From positions 1,084,087-1,148,086 of the forward strand of contig NZ_JABWGO010000001.1 of assembly GCF_013363995.1 (NCBI RefSeq): a DNA stretch of 64,000 bases. The letters are read 5' to 3'. The DNA is from Nonomuraea rhodomycinica. GTDB taxonomy: Bacteria > Actinomycetota > Actinomycetes > Streptosporangiales > Streptosporangiaceae. The notes beneath the pieces were generated by a model, which was given only the letters and a program-made list of their open reading frames with translations, had not been told where the DNA came from and did no database searches. Position numbers and translations under genes: made by a program. Below, one piece after another: positions 40,425-49,613 of this stretch (position 1 is its first letter; every line of letters begins with the position of its first letter).

Positions 40425-40628
40425 ATGTCCCGTCATCACCAGGCCCTGATGGTGTGGGTCGCAGTCTTGCCGACCCTCACCGTCGTACAGCTCGCCCTCA
40501 GCGGCCTCTTGGAGGCGGTCCCGCCGCTCCTGCGCCCCCCGGTCGTCGCCACCGTGGTGGTGCCCATCGTCGTCTACGTGCTGCTGCCGCTGCTGCAGCG
40601 GGTGCGCAGCCGGGTGACCAAGCGCTGA
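40425..40628 (+). CDS. Two-TM small membrane protein
   Basis: 67 residues with two hydrophobic helices (about 8-28 and 35-59) and a basic C-terminal tail (QRVRSRVTKR). ATG 40425 is 108 nt from the LysR start in the divergent direction, so it may be the LysR target. No catalytic motifs. It may be a regulatory or subunit peptide of a membrane complex. I do not recognise a named family. Confidence 0.65.
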   Translation: MSRHHQALMVWVAVLPTLTVVQLALSGLLEAVPPLLRPPVVATVVVPIVVYVLLPLLQRVRSRVTKR

Positions 40629-40654
40629 ACCGCCGCGCGCCCCCCTCGATATCC

Positions 40655-40670
40655 ACCCCCTCAAGGGGTA
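40655..40670. promoter_or_regulatory. CsoR-like box upstream of the Cu ATPase
   Basis: ACCCCCTCAAGGGGTA, a degenerate CsoR-type dyad, 36 nt before the ATPase start. It resembles the boxes near csoR at 43.4-43.6 kb, suggesting one copper sensor controls both. Confidence 0.45.
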
Positions 40671-40706
40671 GGGACAGCTAGAGCCAGGCGTGTGGGGGGA
40701 CCGTTC

Positions 40707-43094
40707 ATGAGCGACCACACCCGGGGGCACCATGACCGAGGAAAGGAACGCAGCACCGCGATCCTGGACGTCAGCGGGCTGCAGTGGGCCTCCGAGCAGA
40801 ACGTCGTCGCCGCCCGGCTGGGCCGCCGCCCCGGTGTGCTGCGCGTGGAGGCCAACCCCGTCGCCCAGACGGCGACGGTGAGCTTCGACCCGCGCCGGAC
40901 CTCTCTCGCCGAGTTGCGCGCATGGGTGATCGAGTGCGGGTATCACTGCGCCGGGCAGTCGGTCCCCTCCCACATCTGCGATCCGATGGCCGAGCCCGAC
41001 CCGCCGGGCACGGCTCCGGCGGAGGCTCCGCACGCCGGTCACCCGGCTCACACGGAAGAGGAGGCCTCCCCCCACGACCGGATGGGGCACGGCGGGCATG
41101 CCGGCATGTCGATGGCCTCCATGGTGGCCGACATGCGGAACCGCTTCCTGGTCGCCGCGCTCTTCTCCATCCCGATCGTGCTGTGGTCGCCGATCGGCAC
41201 CGAGGTGTTCGGGCTGGACCTGCCCGTCCCGTTCGGGCTTCGCCAAGACGTGTGGGCGCTGCTGCTCAGCCTGCCCGTGATCTTCTACTCGTGCTGGATC
41301 TTCTTCGACGGAGCGGTACGGGCGCTTCGGGCACGGACCCTGGACATGATGGTGCTGGTGGCCGTCGCGGTCGGCGCGGGCTGGCTGTACTCGCTCATCG
41401 TGACCCTCACCGGGGGCGGCGAGGTGTTCTACGAGGCCGCGACCGTGCTCGCCGCTTTCGTGCTGCTCGGCCACTGGTTCGAGATGCGGGCACGGGGTGG
41501 CGCCAACGACGCCATCCGCGCCCTGCTCGACCTGGCGCCCCCGAAGGCGACCGTCATGCGCGGCGGCCAGGCCGTCGAGGTGCCGACGGCCGAGGTGACG
41601 GTCGGCGACCTGCTCCTGGTACGCCCCGGCGCGAAGATCCCGGTCGACGGAACGGTCGAGGAGGGCCAGAGCGAGGTCGACGAGTCGATGGTCACCGGTG
41701 AGAGCCTGCCGGTGCACAAGGAGGCCGGCTCGGCGGTCGTCGGCGCGACCATCAACCGCAACGGCACCCTGCGGGTACGTGCCACCAAGGTCGGGGCGGA
41801 CACCGCGCTGGCACAGATCGTCAAGCTGGTCCAGCAGGCTCAGAACTCCAAGGCGCCGGGACAGCGGCTGGCCGATCGGGCGGCGTTCTGGCTGGTGCTG
41901 GTCGCCTTGGCCGGGGGCGCTCTCACGTTCGCGGTCTGGCTGCTGCCGGCCGGTCAGCCGTTCGGCGTCGCGATCCTGTTCGCCATCACGGTCGTGGTCA
42001 TCACCTGCCCGGACGCGCTGGGCCTGGCGACCCCCACGGCGATCATGGTCGGCACCGGCCTCGGAGCCAGGCGCGGGGTGCTGTTCAAGAACGCGATGGC
42101 GCTGGAGACCTCCGCCCGCGTCCAGGTCGTGGTCATGGACAAGACCGGCACCTTGACCAAGGGCGAGCCGGAGGTCACCGACGTCGTCGTCGGCGACACC
42201 GTGACGCAGGAGGAGCTGCTGCGCCTGGTCGCGGCCGTGGAGCGGGAGTCGGAGCATCCGCTGGCCGAGGCGATCGTCCGGCACGCCGGCGATCTGGGCC
42301 TGGAGCCGAGGAGAGCCGAGCGATTCGAGAACGTCCCGGGCCATGGCGCCGTCGCGGAGGTCGGCGGCCGGAAGGTGGCGGTCGGCAACCGCCGGCTGAT
42401 GGAGCGCGAGGGTGTGCCGCTCGGGAAGCTGGCGGGCAGGAGGCAGGAGCTGGCGGAGGGCGGCCGTACGGCCGTCATGGTCGCCGTCGACGGCACGGCG
42501 GCCGGGGTCGTCGGCATCGCCGACGCGGCCCGCGAAACCTCACCGGCGGCGGTGGCCGCTCTGCACGAGCTCGGCGTCGAGGTGGTCATGCTCACGGGGG
42601 ACAATGCCGCCACCGCCGAACGGATCGCCCGGCAGCTCGGCATCGACACCGTGATCGCCGAGGTGCTGCCGGGAGACAAGGCGGCCAAGGTGGCCGAGCT
42701 TCAGGGGGGCGGGCGCAAGGTCGCCATGGTGGGAGACGGCGTCAACGACGCGCCGGCTCTGGCCCGGGCCGATCTGGGCATCGCCATCGGGGCCGGCACC
42801 GACGTGGCCATCGAGACGGCCGACGTGGTGCTGATGCGGTCGGATCCGCTGGACGTCCCCACGGCGCTCCGGATCGGCCGGGGCACCCTGCGCAAGATGC
42901 GGCAGAACCTCGGCTGGGCGATCGGCTACAACGCGCTCGCGCTGCCCGTCGCCGCCGGAGTGTTCCAGCCGGCGTTCGGGCTCGTCCTCCGGCCGGAGAT
43001 CGCCGCGCTGTCGATGTCCGGCTCCAGCCTCATCGTCGCCGTCAACGCCTTGGCGCTCAAACGACTGCGTCTGCCCGGCGCGCACGTCCGCTGA
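40707..43094 (+). CDS. P1B-type heavy-metal ATPase with CPD motif
   Basis: 795 residues from ATG 40707, with GGGGGGA 6 nt upstream. The N-terminal HMA-like domain (20-80) lacks the CxxC loop; instead it ends with Cys77, Cys81 and Cys91. A His/Met-rich stretch ([10 protein letters not shown], 128-137) and a P1B core follow: TGES, DKTGT with Asp478, and the C-terminal MSGSS element typical of CopA. The sixth TM motif is CPD (Cys434-Pro435-Asp436, [10 protein letters not shown]), where Cu(I) pumps have CPC. This changes the metal-coordination site and the specificity is uncertain. Convergent with csoR. Confidence 0.9.
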
Positions 43095-43399: not shown

Positions 43400-43436
43400 G
43401 TCGTTCCTCCCTCGGGCTCCTCACCCAGAAAACACT

Positions 43437-43453
43437 ATACCCCCCTACCGTAT
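43437..43453. promoter_or_regulatory. CsoR-type box 1
   Basis: ATACCCCCCTACCGTAT: ATAC and GTAT ends with a C/G-rich core. It is 37 nt upstream of csoR, the position for autorepression. Confidence 0.55.
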
Positions 43454-43486
43454 TGCGACGACGGCGCTCGTCATCCGCCTTGACAT

Positions 43487-43503
43487 ATACCCCTGGGTGG
43501 TAT
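43487..43503. promoter_or_regulatory. CsoR-type box 2
   Basis: ATACCCCTGGGTGGTAT, best conserved of the group, with ATACC/GGTAT ends. Confidence 0.6.
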
Positions 43504-43521
43504 TTATTACCGGTCACCGCG

Positions 43522-43538
43522 ATACCCCTCATAGGTAT
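43522..43538. promoter_or_regulatory. CsoR-type box 3
   Basis: ATACCCCTCATAGGTAT, ATACC/GGTAT ends, about 35 nt from box 2 centre to centre. Together they could support cooperative binding. Confidence 0.6.
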
Positions 43539-43556
43539 CGAGGAACCAGTTGGGCT

Positions 43557-43575
43557 ATACCCTACCCCCGTAGGG
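43557..43575. promoter_or_regulatory. CsoR-type half-site plus dyad
   Basis: ATACCCTACCCCCGTAGGG contains a perfect CCCTAC-CCCC-GTAGGG dyad. Only one ATACC end is kept. It lies 20 nt before the DHA2 transporter start. Confidence 0.45.
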
Positions 43576-43594
43576 CTCATCGTGGAGAGTACTC

Positions 43595-45441: not shown

Positions 45442-46356
45442 TCACCGCTGGGCTTTGGGAAGCTTGTCGGGATTGGTGATCGAGTAGATGCTCGCGATCC
45501 GGTCGCCGTCCGGGGCGAGGTCGACGATGACCACGGCCATCGGGCTGTCTCCGGAGAAGACCAGCGCGCACGGGTCGCCGGCGACGCGCCGGTAGCGGAT
45601 GTGCAGCCCACCGGCCGGCAGCGTCGCGGCGACCGACATGAACAGCGCGGCCACCTGGTCGCGGCCGTGCACGGGGCGCAGGCTGGTGGCGGGACCCTTG
45701 CCGCCGCCGTCGGTCCACAGGGTCACGTCGGGGGCGAGCAGTTCCAGCAGGGCGCGCAGGTCGCCGCCGAGGGCCGCCGCGGCGAACCGTTCGGTGACCT
45801 GGGAGTGCACGTCGGGCGCGGCCCGATGCCGGGGGCGGCGGGCCTGGACGTGGCGGCGGGCGCGGGCGGCGAGCTGCCGGACGGCCGCCGGGGAACGGCC
45901 GAGGATGTCGGCGGTCTCCGGGTGACCGAAGCCGAACACCTCGTGCAGCAAGAACACCGCCCGTTCCAGCGGCGACAGCGTCTCCAGCACCACCAGCATC
46001 GCCATGGACAGCGATTCGGCGCGTTCGGCGGCGTCGGCGACGTCCTCCTGAGGGGTGACCAGCGGTTCGGGCAGCCAGGGGCCGACGTAGGTCTCCTGCC
46101 GGCGGACGACTTCCGCGCGGCGGGCGAGCGCCTGATTCATGGCGATCCGCACCAGGTAGGCCCGGGGGTTCTCGACCGGTGCGGCGTCCGGCGTCCGGTG
46201 CCGGGCGGACCAGGCCAGCCAGACCTCCTGCAGCGCGTCCTCGGTGTCGGCCAGGCTGCCGAGCATGTTGTAGACCACCGAGAACAGGAGTTCGCGATGG
46301 CCGAGGAACTGCTCGGTGACGGCTTCGTCGGTCGGGTGCTGTGGAGCCGGTGTCAT
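45442..46356 (-). CDS. ECF41-type sigma factor (SigJ-like) with SnoaL-like extension
   Basis: 304 residues. Sigma region 2 shows YNMLGSLADTEDALQEVWL, region 4 has LSPLERAVFLLHEVFGFGHPETADILGRSPAAVRQL. The C-terminal about 110 residues form a SnoaL-like fold (LLAPDVTLWTDGGGKG...GRDQVAALF), which in ECF41 proteins modulates activity instead of an anti-sigma factor. ECF41 genes are often next to a carboxymuconolactone or oxidoreductase target. Here the divergent gene is an amidohydrolase. TGTCACA (-35-like) appears upstream of both genes. Confidence 0.9.
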   Translation of the reverse strand: MTPAPQHPTDEAVTEQFLGHRELLFSVVYNMLGSLADTEDALQEVWLAWSARHRTPDAAPVENPRAYLVRIAMNQALARRAEVVRRQETYVGPWLPEPLVTPQEDVADAAERAESLSMAMLVVLETLSPLERAVFLLHEVFGFGHPETADILGRSPAAVRQLAARARRHVQARRPRHRAAPDVHSQVTERFAAAALGGDLRALLELLAPDVTLWTDGGGKGPATSLRPVHGRDQVAALFMSVAATLPAGGLHIRYRRVAGDPCALVFSGDSPMAVVIVDLAPDGDRIASIYSITNPDKLPKAQR

Positions 46357-47706: not shown

Positions 47707-48117
47707 ATGTTTGACTGGCACACCCGTGATCCACTACGGCTGATGCGCGTCACCACAGTTCTGCAATCGGCCGCCCTCCTCGCGCAGGCGGTGACGGCCG
47801 GTCTGCTGCTGGCCTCGGTGCCCGCCGGCCGGACGGCGCACGGCGTCCTGGCTGGAGTCGTCATCCTCGCCGTGCTGCTCAACCTCCTGGCCGCCGTCCT
47901 GGCCTGGCGGCCAGGCGGCGAATCCGCGCGGTTCATCCTCAGAAGTCTGCCCATGCTGGTGTTCGCCCTGGTGCAGACCGCCCTCGGCTACGCCCACGTG
48001 CGAGAGCTGCACGTGCCCATCGGCGTCCTGATGTTCGCCGCGAGCGTCCTGTTGCTGACGCAGGTGAGATCCGCGAAACCGGCGCGCCCCGCCGTCGGCT
48101 CCGGAGCCGTGTCGTGA
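47707..48117 (+). CDS. Four-TM membrane protein of unknown function
   Basis: 136 residues with four hydrophobic segments (about 14-36, 45-66, 77-96, 103-122). ATG 47707 follows GGAGTGA. No conserved catalytic residues. The stop overlaps the multicopper oxidase start (GTGA), so the two are coupled and may work together, for example as a membrane partner for electron transfer. I do not recognise a family. Confidence 0.7.
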   Translation: MFDWHTRDPLRLMRVTTVLQSAALLAQAVTAGLLLASVPAGRTAHGVLAGVVILAVLLNLLAAVLAWRPGGESARFILRSLPMLVFALVQTALGYAHVRELHVPIGVLMFAASVLLLTQVRSAKPARPAVGSGAVS

Positions 48118-49613
48118 ACCTCACCCGGAGGCATGTGCTGCGGCTGCTCGGGGCGTCCGCCGTGGCGGTGCCGGCCACAGGACTGCTGGTGGCCGCCGGA
48201 CGCGACCGGGTCGACACCGTCGGCCGGGTCGCCTTCACCAACCGGCTCCAGGCGCCACCGCTCGCCCCGTCGCGGCTGGACCCCACCGGGCGCCGGGTGT
48301 TCGACCTGGGAATCCGGGCGGGACGGCGTGAGTTCGTGCCCGGCCGTCCGTCACCCACCTGGGGCGTCAACGGCGACTACCTCGGCCCCACGCTGCGGGC
48401 ACGGCGCGGTGAACGCGTGCTCGTCAACGTCGCCAACGGGGTGGACGAGACGACCACCCTGCACTGGCACGGCATGCACCTGCCGCCGGAGATGGACGGC
48501 GGCCCCTACCAACCGATCGCACCCGGTGCCACCTGGTCCCCCACCTGGACGATCGACCAGCCCGCCGCGTCCCTGTGGTACCACCCGCACCCCCACGGAC
48601 GGACCGCCCGGCACCTCTACCGAGGACTGGCGGGCATGTTCCTGATCGACGACGACACCGTTCCCGGTCTGCCGCACCGGTACGGGATCGATGACGTCCC
48701 GCTCATCGTGCAGGACCGGCGACTGGACGGCGGAAAGCTGAATCCGGACGAGCCGATGTCCGGCACCACCGGCTTCCTCGGCGATCGTCTGCTGGTCAAC
48801 GGGGTCCTCGACCCCTACCTGGTGGTCACCACGACGAGGATCCGGCTGCGGCTGCTCAACGGCTCCAACGCACGCGTGTACAACTTCTCCTTCGCCGACG
48901 GACGCTCGTTCGCCCAGATCGCCTCCGACGGGGGCCTGCTGAGCGCTCCGCACGTCACCCACCACGTCCAGCTCGCCCCCGGCGAACGCGCCGAGATCGT
49001 GGTCACCCTCACACCGGGTGAGCGGATCGTGCTGCGCAGCGCCTCCCCGGCCCGCGGGGCGGGCCTCGTCCAAGGCGACGGCGGCGACGACCGCTTCGAC
49101 GTCCTGGAGCTGCGCGCGGCGCCGAACCTGACCAGCTCGCCCGAACTGCCCGACCGCCTGGCGACCATACCGCCGCTGCCGGCGCACACGGCCGTCCGCA
49201 CCCGGACCTTCGAACTCGCCGAACACCACATCAACGGCAGGAAGATGGATCTCCGCCGGATCGACGCGCAGGTCGGCAAGGACACCACCGAGATCTGGGA
49301 GGTGCGCAGCGGCGACGGCACCCTGCACACCTTCCACGTGCACGACGTGCAGTTCCAGGTCCTGGCGGTCGACGACCGAAGGCCGCCTCCGGAACTGTCG
49401 GGCTGGAAGGACACCGTCCTGCTCCCGCCGGGGTCGCGGATGCGGCTCATCATGCGCTTCGCCGACTACGCCGACCCCCACCGGCCCTACATGTTCCACT
49501 GCCACATGCTGTACCACGAGGACGAGGGAATGATGGGCCAGTTCCTCGTCCTCGCCCCAGGTCAGGCCGCCGCACCGGCGCCCCTCCCTGGCGAACACCC
49601 GTCACATCACTGA
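48114..49613 (+). CDS. Tat-exported multicopper oxidase
   Basis: 499 residues, three cupredoxin domains, CueO/SpoA-like. The N-terminus NLTRRHVLRLLG is a twin-arginine signal. Copper ligands: HWHGMH (T2/T3), WYHPHPHG, HTFHVHDVQF and C-terminal HCHMLYHEDEGMMGQF, with the T1 Cys in HCH. GTG 48114 overlaps the previous stop. It could oxidise Cu(I), metals or phenols outside the cell. A strong terminator follows directly. Confidence 0.92.
   Translation: MNLTRRHVLRLLGASAVAVPATGLLVAAGRDRVDTVGRVAFTNRLQAPPLAPSRLDPTGRRVFDLGIRAGRREFVPGRPSPTWGVNGDYLGPTLRARRGERVLVNVANGVDETTTLHWHGMHLPPEMDGGPYQPIAPGATWSPTWTIDQPAASLWYHPHPHGRTARHLYRGLAGMFLIDDDTVPGLPHRYGIDDVPLIVQDRRLDGGKLNPDEPMSGTTGFLGDRLLVNGVLDPYLVVTTTRIRLRLLNGSNARVYNFSFADGRSFAQIASDGGLLSAPHVTHHVQLAPGERAEIVVTLTPGERIVLRSASPARGAGLVQGDGGDDRFDVLELRAAPNLTSSPELPDRLATIPPLPAHTAVRTRTFELAEHHINGRKMDLRRIDAQVGKDTTEIWEVRSGDGTLHTFHVHDVQFQVLAVDDRRPPPELSGWKDTVLLPPGSRMRLIMRFADYADPHRPYMFHCHMLYHEDEGMMGQFLVLAPGQAAAPAPLPGEHPSHH

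Follow-up and report, generated by a model that had tools for sequence, protein, structure and literature searches.

The closest described relative of the locus considered here is the CsoR regulon of Streptomyces lividans (csoR, copZA1 and copZA2), in which repressor binding requires a TAC-N9-GTA inverted repeat, with ATATACCCCTNAGGGGTATAT as the published consensus, and for which three operators have been reported, serving csoR and copZA (PMC3902906). Further CsoR targets predicted in Streptomyces are SCO1044, SCO3280, SCO4137, SCO6710 and SCO7265; PMC6414726 names the product of one of them, a glycosyl hydrolase. In Bradyrhizobium, csoR and the P-type ATPase gene cueA are divergent and have a common control region (PMC5057107). 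Among MFS proteins, CcoA is a copper importer with MxxxM and HxxxM motifs (PMC8406296). A near miss is found in Streptomyces tsukubaensis, where an MFS transporter is among the SigG1 targets and sigG1 mutants are copper-sensitive (PMC7730460), and no copper exporter of the MFS type is named in the export passage of a review from 2020 (PMC7558416). In the open-access literature searched, no description was found of an MFS copper exporter nor, with the S. lividans regulon paper outside the scope of that search, of a CsoR-controlled DHA2 transporter.

The locus lies in a 64-kb window (the whole stretch of Nonomuraea rhodomycinica DNA that was analysed, C11:1084087-1148086 of a 9.6-Mb genome), in which a csoR gene on the minus strand and a DHA2-type transporter gene on the plus strand diverge from a gap of 195 bp (43400-43594; Table 1). 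With the S. lividans regulon it shares the sensor type, type-2 operators, a likely autoregulation and the link to copZA (PMC3902906). It differs in that four candidate operators are gathered in one gap and in that the divergent target is a DHA2 gene, the words MFS and transporter being absent from the main text of PMC3902906. The divergence of csoR and an exporter gene from a common control region recalls Bradyrhizobium csoR-cueA, although a DHA2-type MFS protein takes the place of the P-type ATPase (PMC5057107). The 14-helix DHA2 fold is that of the mycobacterial efflux pump EfpA (8ufd), beside which the clade of the transporter can be set by its CsoR operators, its copper-gene neighbours and its clade-specific methionines (features scored in the clade). 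Like the copper importer CcoA/CalT, the transporter is an MFS protein with methionines in transmembrane helices; unlike it, it is a 14-helix DHA2 protein, predicted to be under a high-copper repressor and devoid of MxxxM/HxxxM. The arrangement is also that of the Rhodococcus plasmid cop clusters (pROB01 and R. pseudokoreensis), in which the transporter is divergent from cop-type genes; it is annotated there merely as 'MFS transporter', with no copper role given in the tables. CsoR, CsoR operators and csoR-exporter divergons are already known, and what appears to be new, within the open-access literature apart from the full S. lividans target list, is the regular inclusion of a DHA2 clade in the CsoR regulon.

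The sequence evidence set out below makes it likely that the locus is a CsoR-controlled divergon whose DHA2 transporter is a copper-efflux accessory of the CsoR-CopZ-CopA module. CsoR-type control of the DHA2 gene is held to be highly probable, and a role of its product in copper efflux or detoxification is considered fairly likely; that Cu(I) itself is the substrate is proposed tentatively, somewhat short of an even chance.

Table 1. Features of the csoR/DHA2 locus and related sites (positions are those of the window, except where another locus is named).
Feature	Position	Strand	Sequence or match	Remark
P1B-type Cu ATPase, TM6 motif CPD	40707-43094	+	TIGR01511, 591 bits	longer frame 40692-43094
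csoR, Cu(I)-type CsoR/RicR repressor by assignment, 93 aa	43118-43399	-	PF02583, 4adz	
Candidate CsoR-type operator 1	43437-43453		ATACCCCCCTACCGTAT	1 mismatch, TAC-N9-GTA; nearest csoR
Putative csoR -10	overlaps operator 1	-	TATAGT	inferred by inspection
Putative -35 of DHA2 promoter	43480-43485	+	TTGACA	from sequence
Candidate CsoR-type operator 2	43487-43503		ATACCCCTGGGTGGTAT	0 mismatches; gap centre
Putative -10 of DHA2 promoter	43503-43508	+	TTTATT	inferred by inspection
Candidate CsoR-type operator 3	43522-43538		ATACCCCTCATAGGTAT	0 mismatches; 35 bp past operator 2
Candidate CsoR-type operator 4, partial dyad	43557-43573		ATACCCTACCCCCGTAG	2 mismatches, TAC-N9-GTA kept; 35 bp past operator 3
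DHA2-type (14-helix) MFS transporter, 471 aa	43595-45010	+	Pfam MFS_1, EfpA fold	
SigJ-type ECF sigma factor, C-terminal SnoaL_2 domain	45442-46356	-		downstream of transporter
CueO-like multicopper oxidase	48114-49613			~3 kb downstream of transporter
copZ/oxidoreductase pair	L132 5303-6811; C11 ~1000.5 kb	divergent	oxidoreductase PF07992, PF14759	
Box before His-rich DUF4396 gene	L133 3578; C22, 725577			1 mismatch
Second genomic clade member, upstream region	L130 7964-8197; C77 ~18 kb			boxes and CopZ-like leader

Boxes were scored against the 17-bp pattern ATACC-N7-GGTAT, with TAC-N9-GTA as its core. The initial annotation had proposed three ATACC...GGTAT boxes and a partial fourth dyad in the csoR/DHA2 gap, and this description stands, as four candidate operators are found in numbers beyond those of shuffled sequence. 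TAC-N9-GTA occurs four times in the whole 64-kb window, each time in one of these four operators. From operator 2 it is 87 bp to csoR and 91 bp to the start of the DHA2 gene, and operator 4 lies directly 5' of the likely DHA2 ribosome-binding site. Two exact sites (shuffle mean 0.0014), three sites at up to one mismatch (0.026) or four sites at up to two mismatches (0.245) were never reached when the gap was dinucleotide-shuffled 5000 times, and at the loose limit of up to three mismatches the five sites of the gap were matched by 0.78% of the shuffles. A chance origin of the boxes is rejected on these shuffles, on the genome-wide counts and on the clade-wide presence of boxes given below.

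The positions of the operators suggest what they may control. Operator 2 begins one base past TTGACA and sits in the -35/-10 spacer of a putative DHA2 promoter, its 3' end merging into an AT-rich -10-like stretch, and operator 1 overlaps a putative -10 of csoR. A generic sigma-70 consensus scan returned no promoter in the gap, and the DHA2 hexamers are therefore inferred from their position and from a conserved TTGAC-plus-box layout: of 100 upstream regions from the clade, that of the window among them, 28 have TTGAC 0-7 bp 5' of a box, and in 14 of the 100 the distance is exactly 1 bp. Start-to-start spacings of 32-36 bp account for 43 of 90 box spacings across the clade.

The Cu ATPase gene converges with csoR. 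A degenerate CsoR box had been claimed in front of it, which is not a credible operator: the best upstream 17-mer has three mismatches, no TAC-N9-GTA occurs in 40500-40720, and the ACCCC/GGGGT arms appear by inspection to be two bases wider apart than in the consensus. The ATPase is best taken as a neighbour, its membership in the CsoR regulon being unsupported by an upstream box. Its TM6 motif is CPD, not CPC/CPH, and is kept in six of six sequences examined (window copy included); among the 80 best of at least 412 DHA2 loci, motif matches were 21 for CPC and eight for CPH. The multicopper oxidase farther downstream (Table 1) has no CsoR box upstream.

The csoR product matches Pfam PF02583 (Trns_repr_metal) at 99.1 bits against a cut-off of 22.8, and its best PDB match is S. 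lividans CsoR 4adz (125.5 bits, E 6.4e-36), with which its Cu(I) ligand pattern YC...H...C aligns. By inspection it also fits the CsoR/RicR motif R.{13}M.....YC.D...H...C as given in PMC4531530. The best NCBIfam model is RicR NF052430, at 135.3 bits and below its cut-off of 175, so that the repressor is filed as CsoR-type and not as RicR itself; the FrmR and RcnR models are far under their cut-offs. By its closest solved structure and its ligand alignment, the repressor of the window is assigned as a Cu(I)-type CsoR.

The initial annotation had regarded the arrangement as unusual, whereas it proved to be a conserved trait of one DHA2 clade across Actinomycetota. A scan of 84,980 species genomes gave at least 412 DHA2 relatives, of which the best 80 (73-93% identity) were taken, the closest named relatives by the transporter protein being Nonomuraea; one was dropped from the box counts for having 7 bp of upstream sequence. 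Since these best-scoring loci are mutually related, the counts are not independent events: within 400 bp, a box with up to one mismatch was found in 71 of 79 members and TAC-N9-GTA in 73 of 79, against 46 of 2686 random 400-bp windows with a box from the same loci. Boxed members of this best-80 set fall into 28 of 32 genus-level groups (four groups being MAGs). Within 200 bp, 68 of 79 were boxed and 46 had at least two boxes, where shuffles predict 0.5 and 0. Eight of the 79 had no such box within 400 bp (L027, L033, L035, L045, L048, L069, L079 and L082), six of them lacking TAC-N9-GTA as well. In 176 boxes at up to one mismatch, C occupied the free positions 6, 7 and 8 in 170, 151 and 115, and G the free positions 12 and 11 in 119 and 92. 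A phylum sample of 296 genomes added three relatives of at least 67% identity, all boxed (two at up to one mismatch and one at two), and none of 26 fetched relatives of 48% identity or less had a box at up to two mismatches within 400 bp. In a family sample, a clade member at E of 1e-150 or below occurred in 19 of 120 genomes, and 15 of 18 newly fetched loci carried a box at up to one mismatch within 500 bp, the other three having none. Control DHA2 orthologues from one genus were boxed within 200 bp in 0 of 30 cases. The gene is patchy and most of its members are boxed, which suggests that the copper operator travels with the transporter gene.

Copper genes also accompany the clade. A homologue of CsoR, CopZ or a Cu ATPase lies within 1.5 kb in 39 of the 80 loci (best of at least 412) and no copper gene was detected within that distance in the other 41, compared with none in either control DHA2 set (0 of 30 and 0 of 53, that is 0 of 83); a second control DHA2 protein gave six matches and was left out. 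csoR is adjacent in 13 of the 80 loci, divergent in 11, upstream and co-directional in L061 and downstream in L079 (a partial csoR match in L086 was excluded), so that most boxed loci have no adjacent csoR. Of the conserved neighbour clusters, which were identified by eye, the largest is that of a membrane-anchored protein, with 29 loci; an ATPase follows with 26, CopZ with 24 and CsoR with 21. The membrane-anchored protein resembles the hypothetical protein of the cop cluster described below and usually accompanies CopZ, CsoR and the P-type ATPase. Visual inspection of the 22 listed clusters revealed no genes recognisable as part of a biosynthetic cluster.

Sixteen upstream regions, picked mainly for distant or missing boxes, were read out to 700 bp, and in nine of these selected loci (L039, L056, L170, L171, L172, L174, L176, L179 and L180) an HMA-type copZ with a CxxC motif lies between the boxes and the transporter gene, as supported by a Pfam run for L179 only. 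An interposed copZ appears degraded in L097 and L173, its end alone is in view in L177, and there is none in L035, L178, L181 and L182. A plasmid search for the transporter gave 13 records, seven of them from Rhodococcus. In two Rhodococcus plasmids (pROB01 and the R. pseudokoreensis plasmid) the transporter gene is boxed and is divergent from genes for a heavy-metal-associated CopZ-like protein, a hypothetical protein, a P-type ATPase and a metal-sensitive regulator. On Paenibacillus plasmids, two near-identical DHA2 copies (L184 and L187; 58% identity) have YdhK and multicopper oxidase genes in their vicinity, neither copy having a box, and the clade or a close sister thus appears to reach Bacillota. 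Taken at the level of sequence, which establishes the operators, the identity of the CsoR, the clade-wide conservation and the copper-gene neighbourhood, the window locus would be one case of a widespread, patchy, partly plasmid-borne and CsoR-controlled DHA2 clade.

In the 9.6-Mb genome, exact ATACC-N7-GGTAT occurs at five places, and at up to one mismatch there are 18 forward matches against six for the reversed control pattern, so that some of the 13 one-mismatch matches are expected by chance. Two of the five exact boxes are those of the csoR/DHA2 gap. The fifth lies about 300 bp 5' of the only other clade member in the genome, a DHA2 gene with 68% identity. Of the 30 best among 48 genomic DHA2-type matches, two have a box at up to one mismatch within 400 bp in a strand-aware scan, and these are the two clade members; the paralogues L101 and L102 have 17-mers of two mismatches at best. 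The thirteen one-mismatch sites include operator 1 of the window, one site before the cop cluster and one before a DUF4396 gene. The surroundings were read for the sites in L001/L002, L003/L004/L012, L005, L008, L009, L013 and L014, and no evident copper gene was seen around those of L009 and L013. The genome has four CsoR-family members. One heads a csoR-copZ-hypothetical-copA cluster, with a one-mismatch box 10 bp before its predicted start and a hypothetical protein that is weakly YtkA-like, under the Pfam cut-off; another lies, as judged by eye, near sulfurtransferase-like and persulfide-oxidising-like genes. A copZ (HMA domain) and a pyridine-nucleotide oxidoreductase gene that diverge from each other have two exact boxes and one with a single mismatch between them, and this pair is likely to be a further CsoR target. 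The His-rich DUF4396 gene, with its box directly in front, is possibly another copper gene.

The transporter itself matches Pfam MFS_1 at 169.9 bits (cut-off 33.4) and the NCBIfam efflux_EmrB model TIGR00711 at 225.8 bits, just under the cut-off of 230.2, and is therefore called DHA2-type from its fold and its closest relatives. The AlphaFold2 model (81 proteins, that of the window and those of the 80 loci) has a mean pLDDT of 85.5 and 14 helical stretches of at least 15 residues by manual count. Its closest PDB structure is EfpA 8ufd_A (Z 42.2, rmsd 3.1 over 459 residues, 30% identity), with NorC and QacA as other close structures and EmrB among the sequence matches; the fold predicted to be shared with EfpA would not in itself indicate a function. 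Methionines stand at 1, 24, 124, 125, 187, 255, 282, 308, 313, 316, 344, 371, 413 and 431, there is no Cys, and the single His, at 129, is unconserved. CcoA-type MxxxM/HxxxM motifs are absent from the sequence. Seven methionines (24, 124, 308, 313, 316, 371 and 413) are clade-specific and near-invariant in a comparison of 100 clade sequences with 54 other DHA2 sequences (hypergeometric P 6.5e-4). The control DHA2 orthologue set of 30 sequences gave four such methionines (P 0.15), but as it comes from one genus and is less diverse than the copper clade, the comparison is suggestive at most. By inspection, the Paenibacillus copy keeps apparent methionines 24, 124, 125, 308, 316, 371 and 413 and has lost 313. 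The pattern is compatible with Cu(I) handling but falls short of proof.

In the mechanism that we infer for the promoters, the binding of CsoR to DNA and copper, the copper induction and the substrate, apo-CsoR would bind the four type-2 operators distributed over the csoR and DHA2 promoters. Operator 1 would overlap the putative csoR promoter, operator 2 would lie in the spacer of the putative DHA2 promoter, and operators 3 and 4 would continue in 35-bp steps to the DHA2 ribosome-binding site; since both promoters would be covered, apo-CsoR is expected to keep csoR and the DHA2 gene off. As Cu(I) rises, CsoR would release the DNA and the transporter would be made along with the cop genes, and it would most likely lower cytoplasmic copper beside CopA by exporting Cu(I), free or in a small complex, in a proton-coupled manner. 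CsoR-type control, which the initial annotation had put forward, is thus upheld as a prediction by the operator sequence, the neighbouring Cu(I)-type CsoR, the promoter overlap and phylogenetic footprinting. Several observations count against the mechanism as a whole: the sigma-70 scan that returned no promoter, the unboxed members (eight of 79, and three of 18 in the family sample), the boxless Paenibacillus copies, the 41 of 80 loci in which no copper gene was detected within 1.5 kb, the lack of Cys and of CcoA-type motifs, and drug or lipid transporters as closest solved relatives. The clade as a whole may be viewed as a distinct, partly mobile and recurrent accessory of the actinobacterial CsoR-CopZ-CopA module; its most likely role is that of a copper-efflux component, and it may be a Cu(I) exporter of the MFS type. 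In the exporter version, for which the chances are put slightly against, CopZ would hand Cu(I) over at the cytoplasmic side, at Met124/125. The ion would then follow a path in both protein halves via the helix methionines Met24, Met308/313/316, Met371 and Met413, and would leave in exchange for protons.

It is also conceivable, if rather unlikely, that what the DHA2 protein exports is not the copper ion but a small molecule that binds copper (a metallophore, a Cu complex or a copper-damaged metabolite), a reading that overlaps with the small Cu(I) complex allowed for above. DHA2 proteins typically export organic compounds, and EfpA, NorC and QacA as nearest structures, EmrB in the sequence matches, the lack of Cys and the one unconserved His would suit such a substrate. 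However, no biosynthetic genes were recognised among the neighbour clusters (22 listed), of which the four largest are the membrane-anchored protein, an ATPase, CopZ and CsoR, and copZ as a likely operon partner in nine of the 16 selected loci points to the ion itself. The metallophore suggested in the initial annotation is without support, the main neighbours being CopZ, CsoR, the P-type ATPase and the membrane-anchored protein and no biosynthetic cluster having been recognised; it is more plausible that Cu(I) or a small Cu complex is exported directly.

That the protein is a general drug exporter which copper control has turned against copper-activated toxicants or membrane damage is considered improbable. 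Metal stress can induce general efflux, and the DHA2 fold and the likeness to EfpA would agree with this reading. Against it stand the 28 other proteins among the 30 best genomic DHA2-type matches, which have no box at up to one mismatch, the 83 control loci without copper neighbours and the clade-specific methionines.

The CsoR family includes CstR, FrmR, RcnR and InrS sensors, and the neighbouring family member might answer a non-copper signal (persulfide, formaldehyde or nickel), which we regard as very improbable. One of the four genomic members does lie near sulfurtransferase- and persulfide-oxidising-like genes, and CsoR-family and MFS genes occur in sulfur-metabolism modules on Arthrobacter plasmids according to PMC6305408. 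The match to the Cu(I)-sensing CsoR of S. lividans, ligands YC...H...C included, the fit to the motif of PMC4531530, the FrmR and RcnR models far under cut-off and a box of the same kind in front of the csoR-copZ-copA cluster nevertheless argue for a copper sensor. Finally, that the boxes serve csoR autoregulation alone, with the DHA2 gene as a bystander, is hardly credible. In its favour, csoR is autoregulated in Streptomyces (PMC6414726), operator 1 is placed towards csoR and operator 2 lies midway in the gap. Against it, operators 3 and 4 are on the DHA2 side, operator 2 follows a DHA2-directed TTGACA, and boxes are present before the transporter gene in 71 of 79 loci, while 13 of 80 have csoR next to it (best 80 of at least 412).

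If the copper-efflux reading is true, a CsoR-linked and often CopZ-linked DHA2 clade present in at least 28 genus-level groups would be a missing component of actinobacterial copper resistance, and some genes annotated as MFS or drug exporters would be copper genes. As a part of bacterial copper defence, the clade has probably been overlooked. Were it a Cu(I) exporter, it would be a non-ATPase inner-membrane copper pump, partly spread by plasmids across Actinomycetota and reaching Bacillota, and the clade offers a sharp and inexpensive way of testing whether copper can be expelled by an MFS protein.

The second genomic clade member has boxes and a CopZ-like leader upstream (Table 1). The leader has the N-terminal sequence MCTACTCG, without an MTCxxC metal site and with no Pfam match; MTCxxC is present in the leaders of several of its relatives. 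In many members of this subgroup, a strong inverted repeat, GTGGGCGTGC..GCACGCCCAC, precedes the DHA2 gene by inspection.
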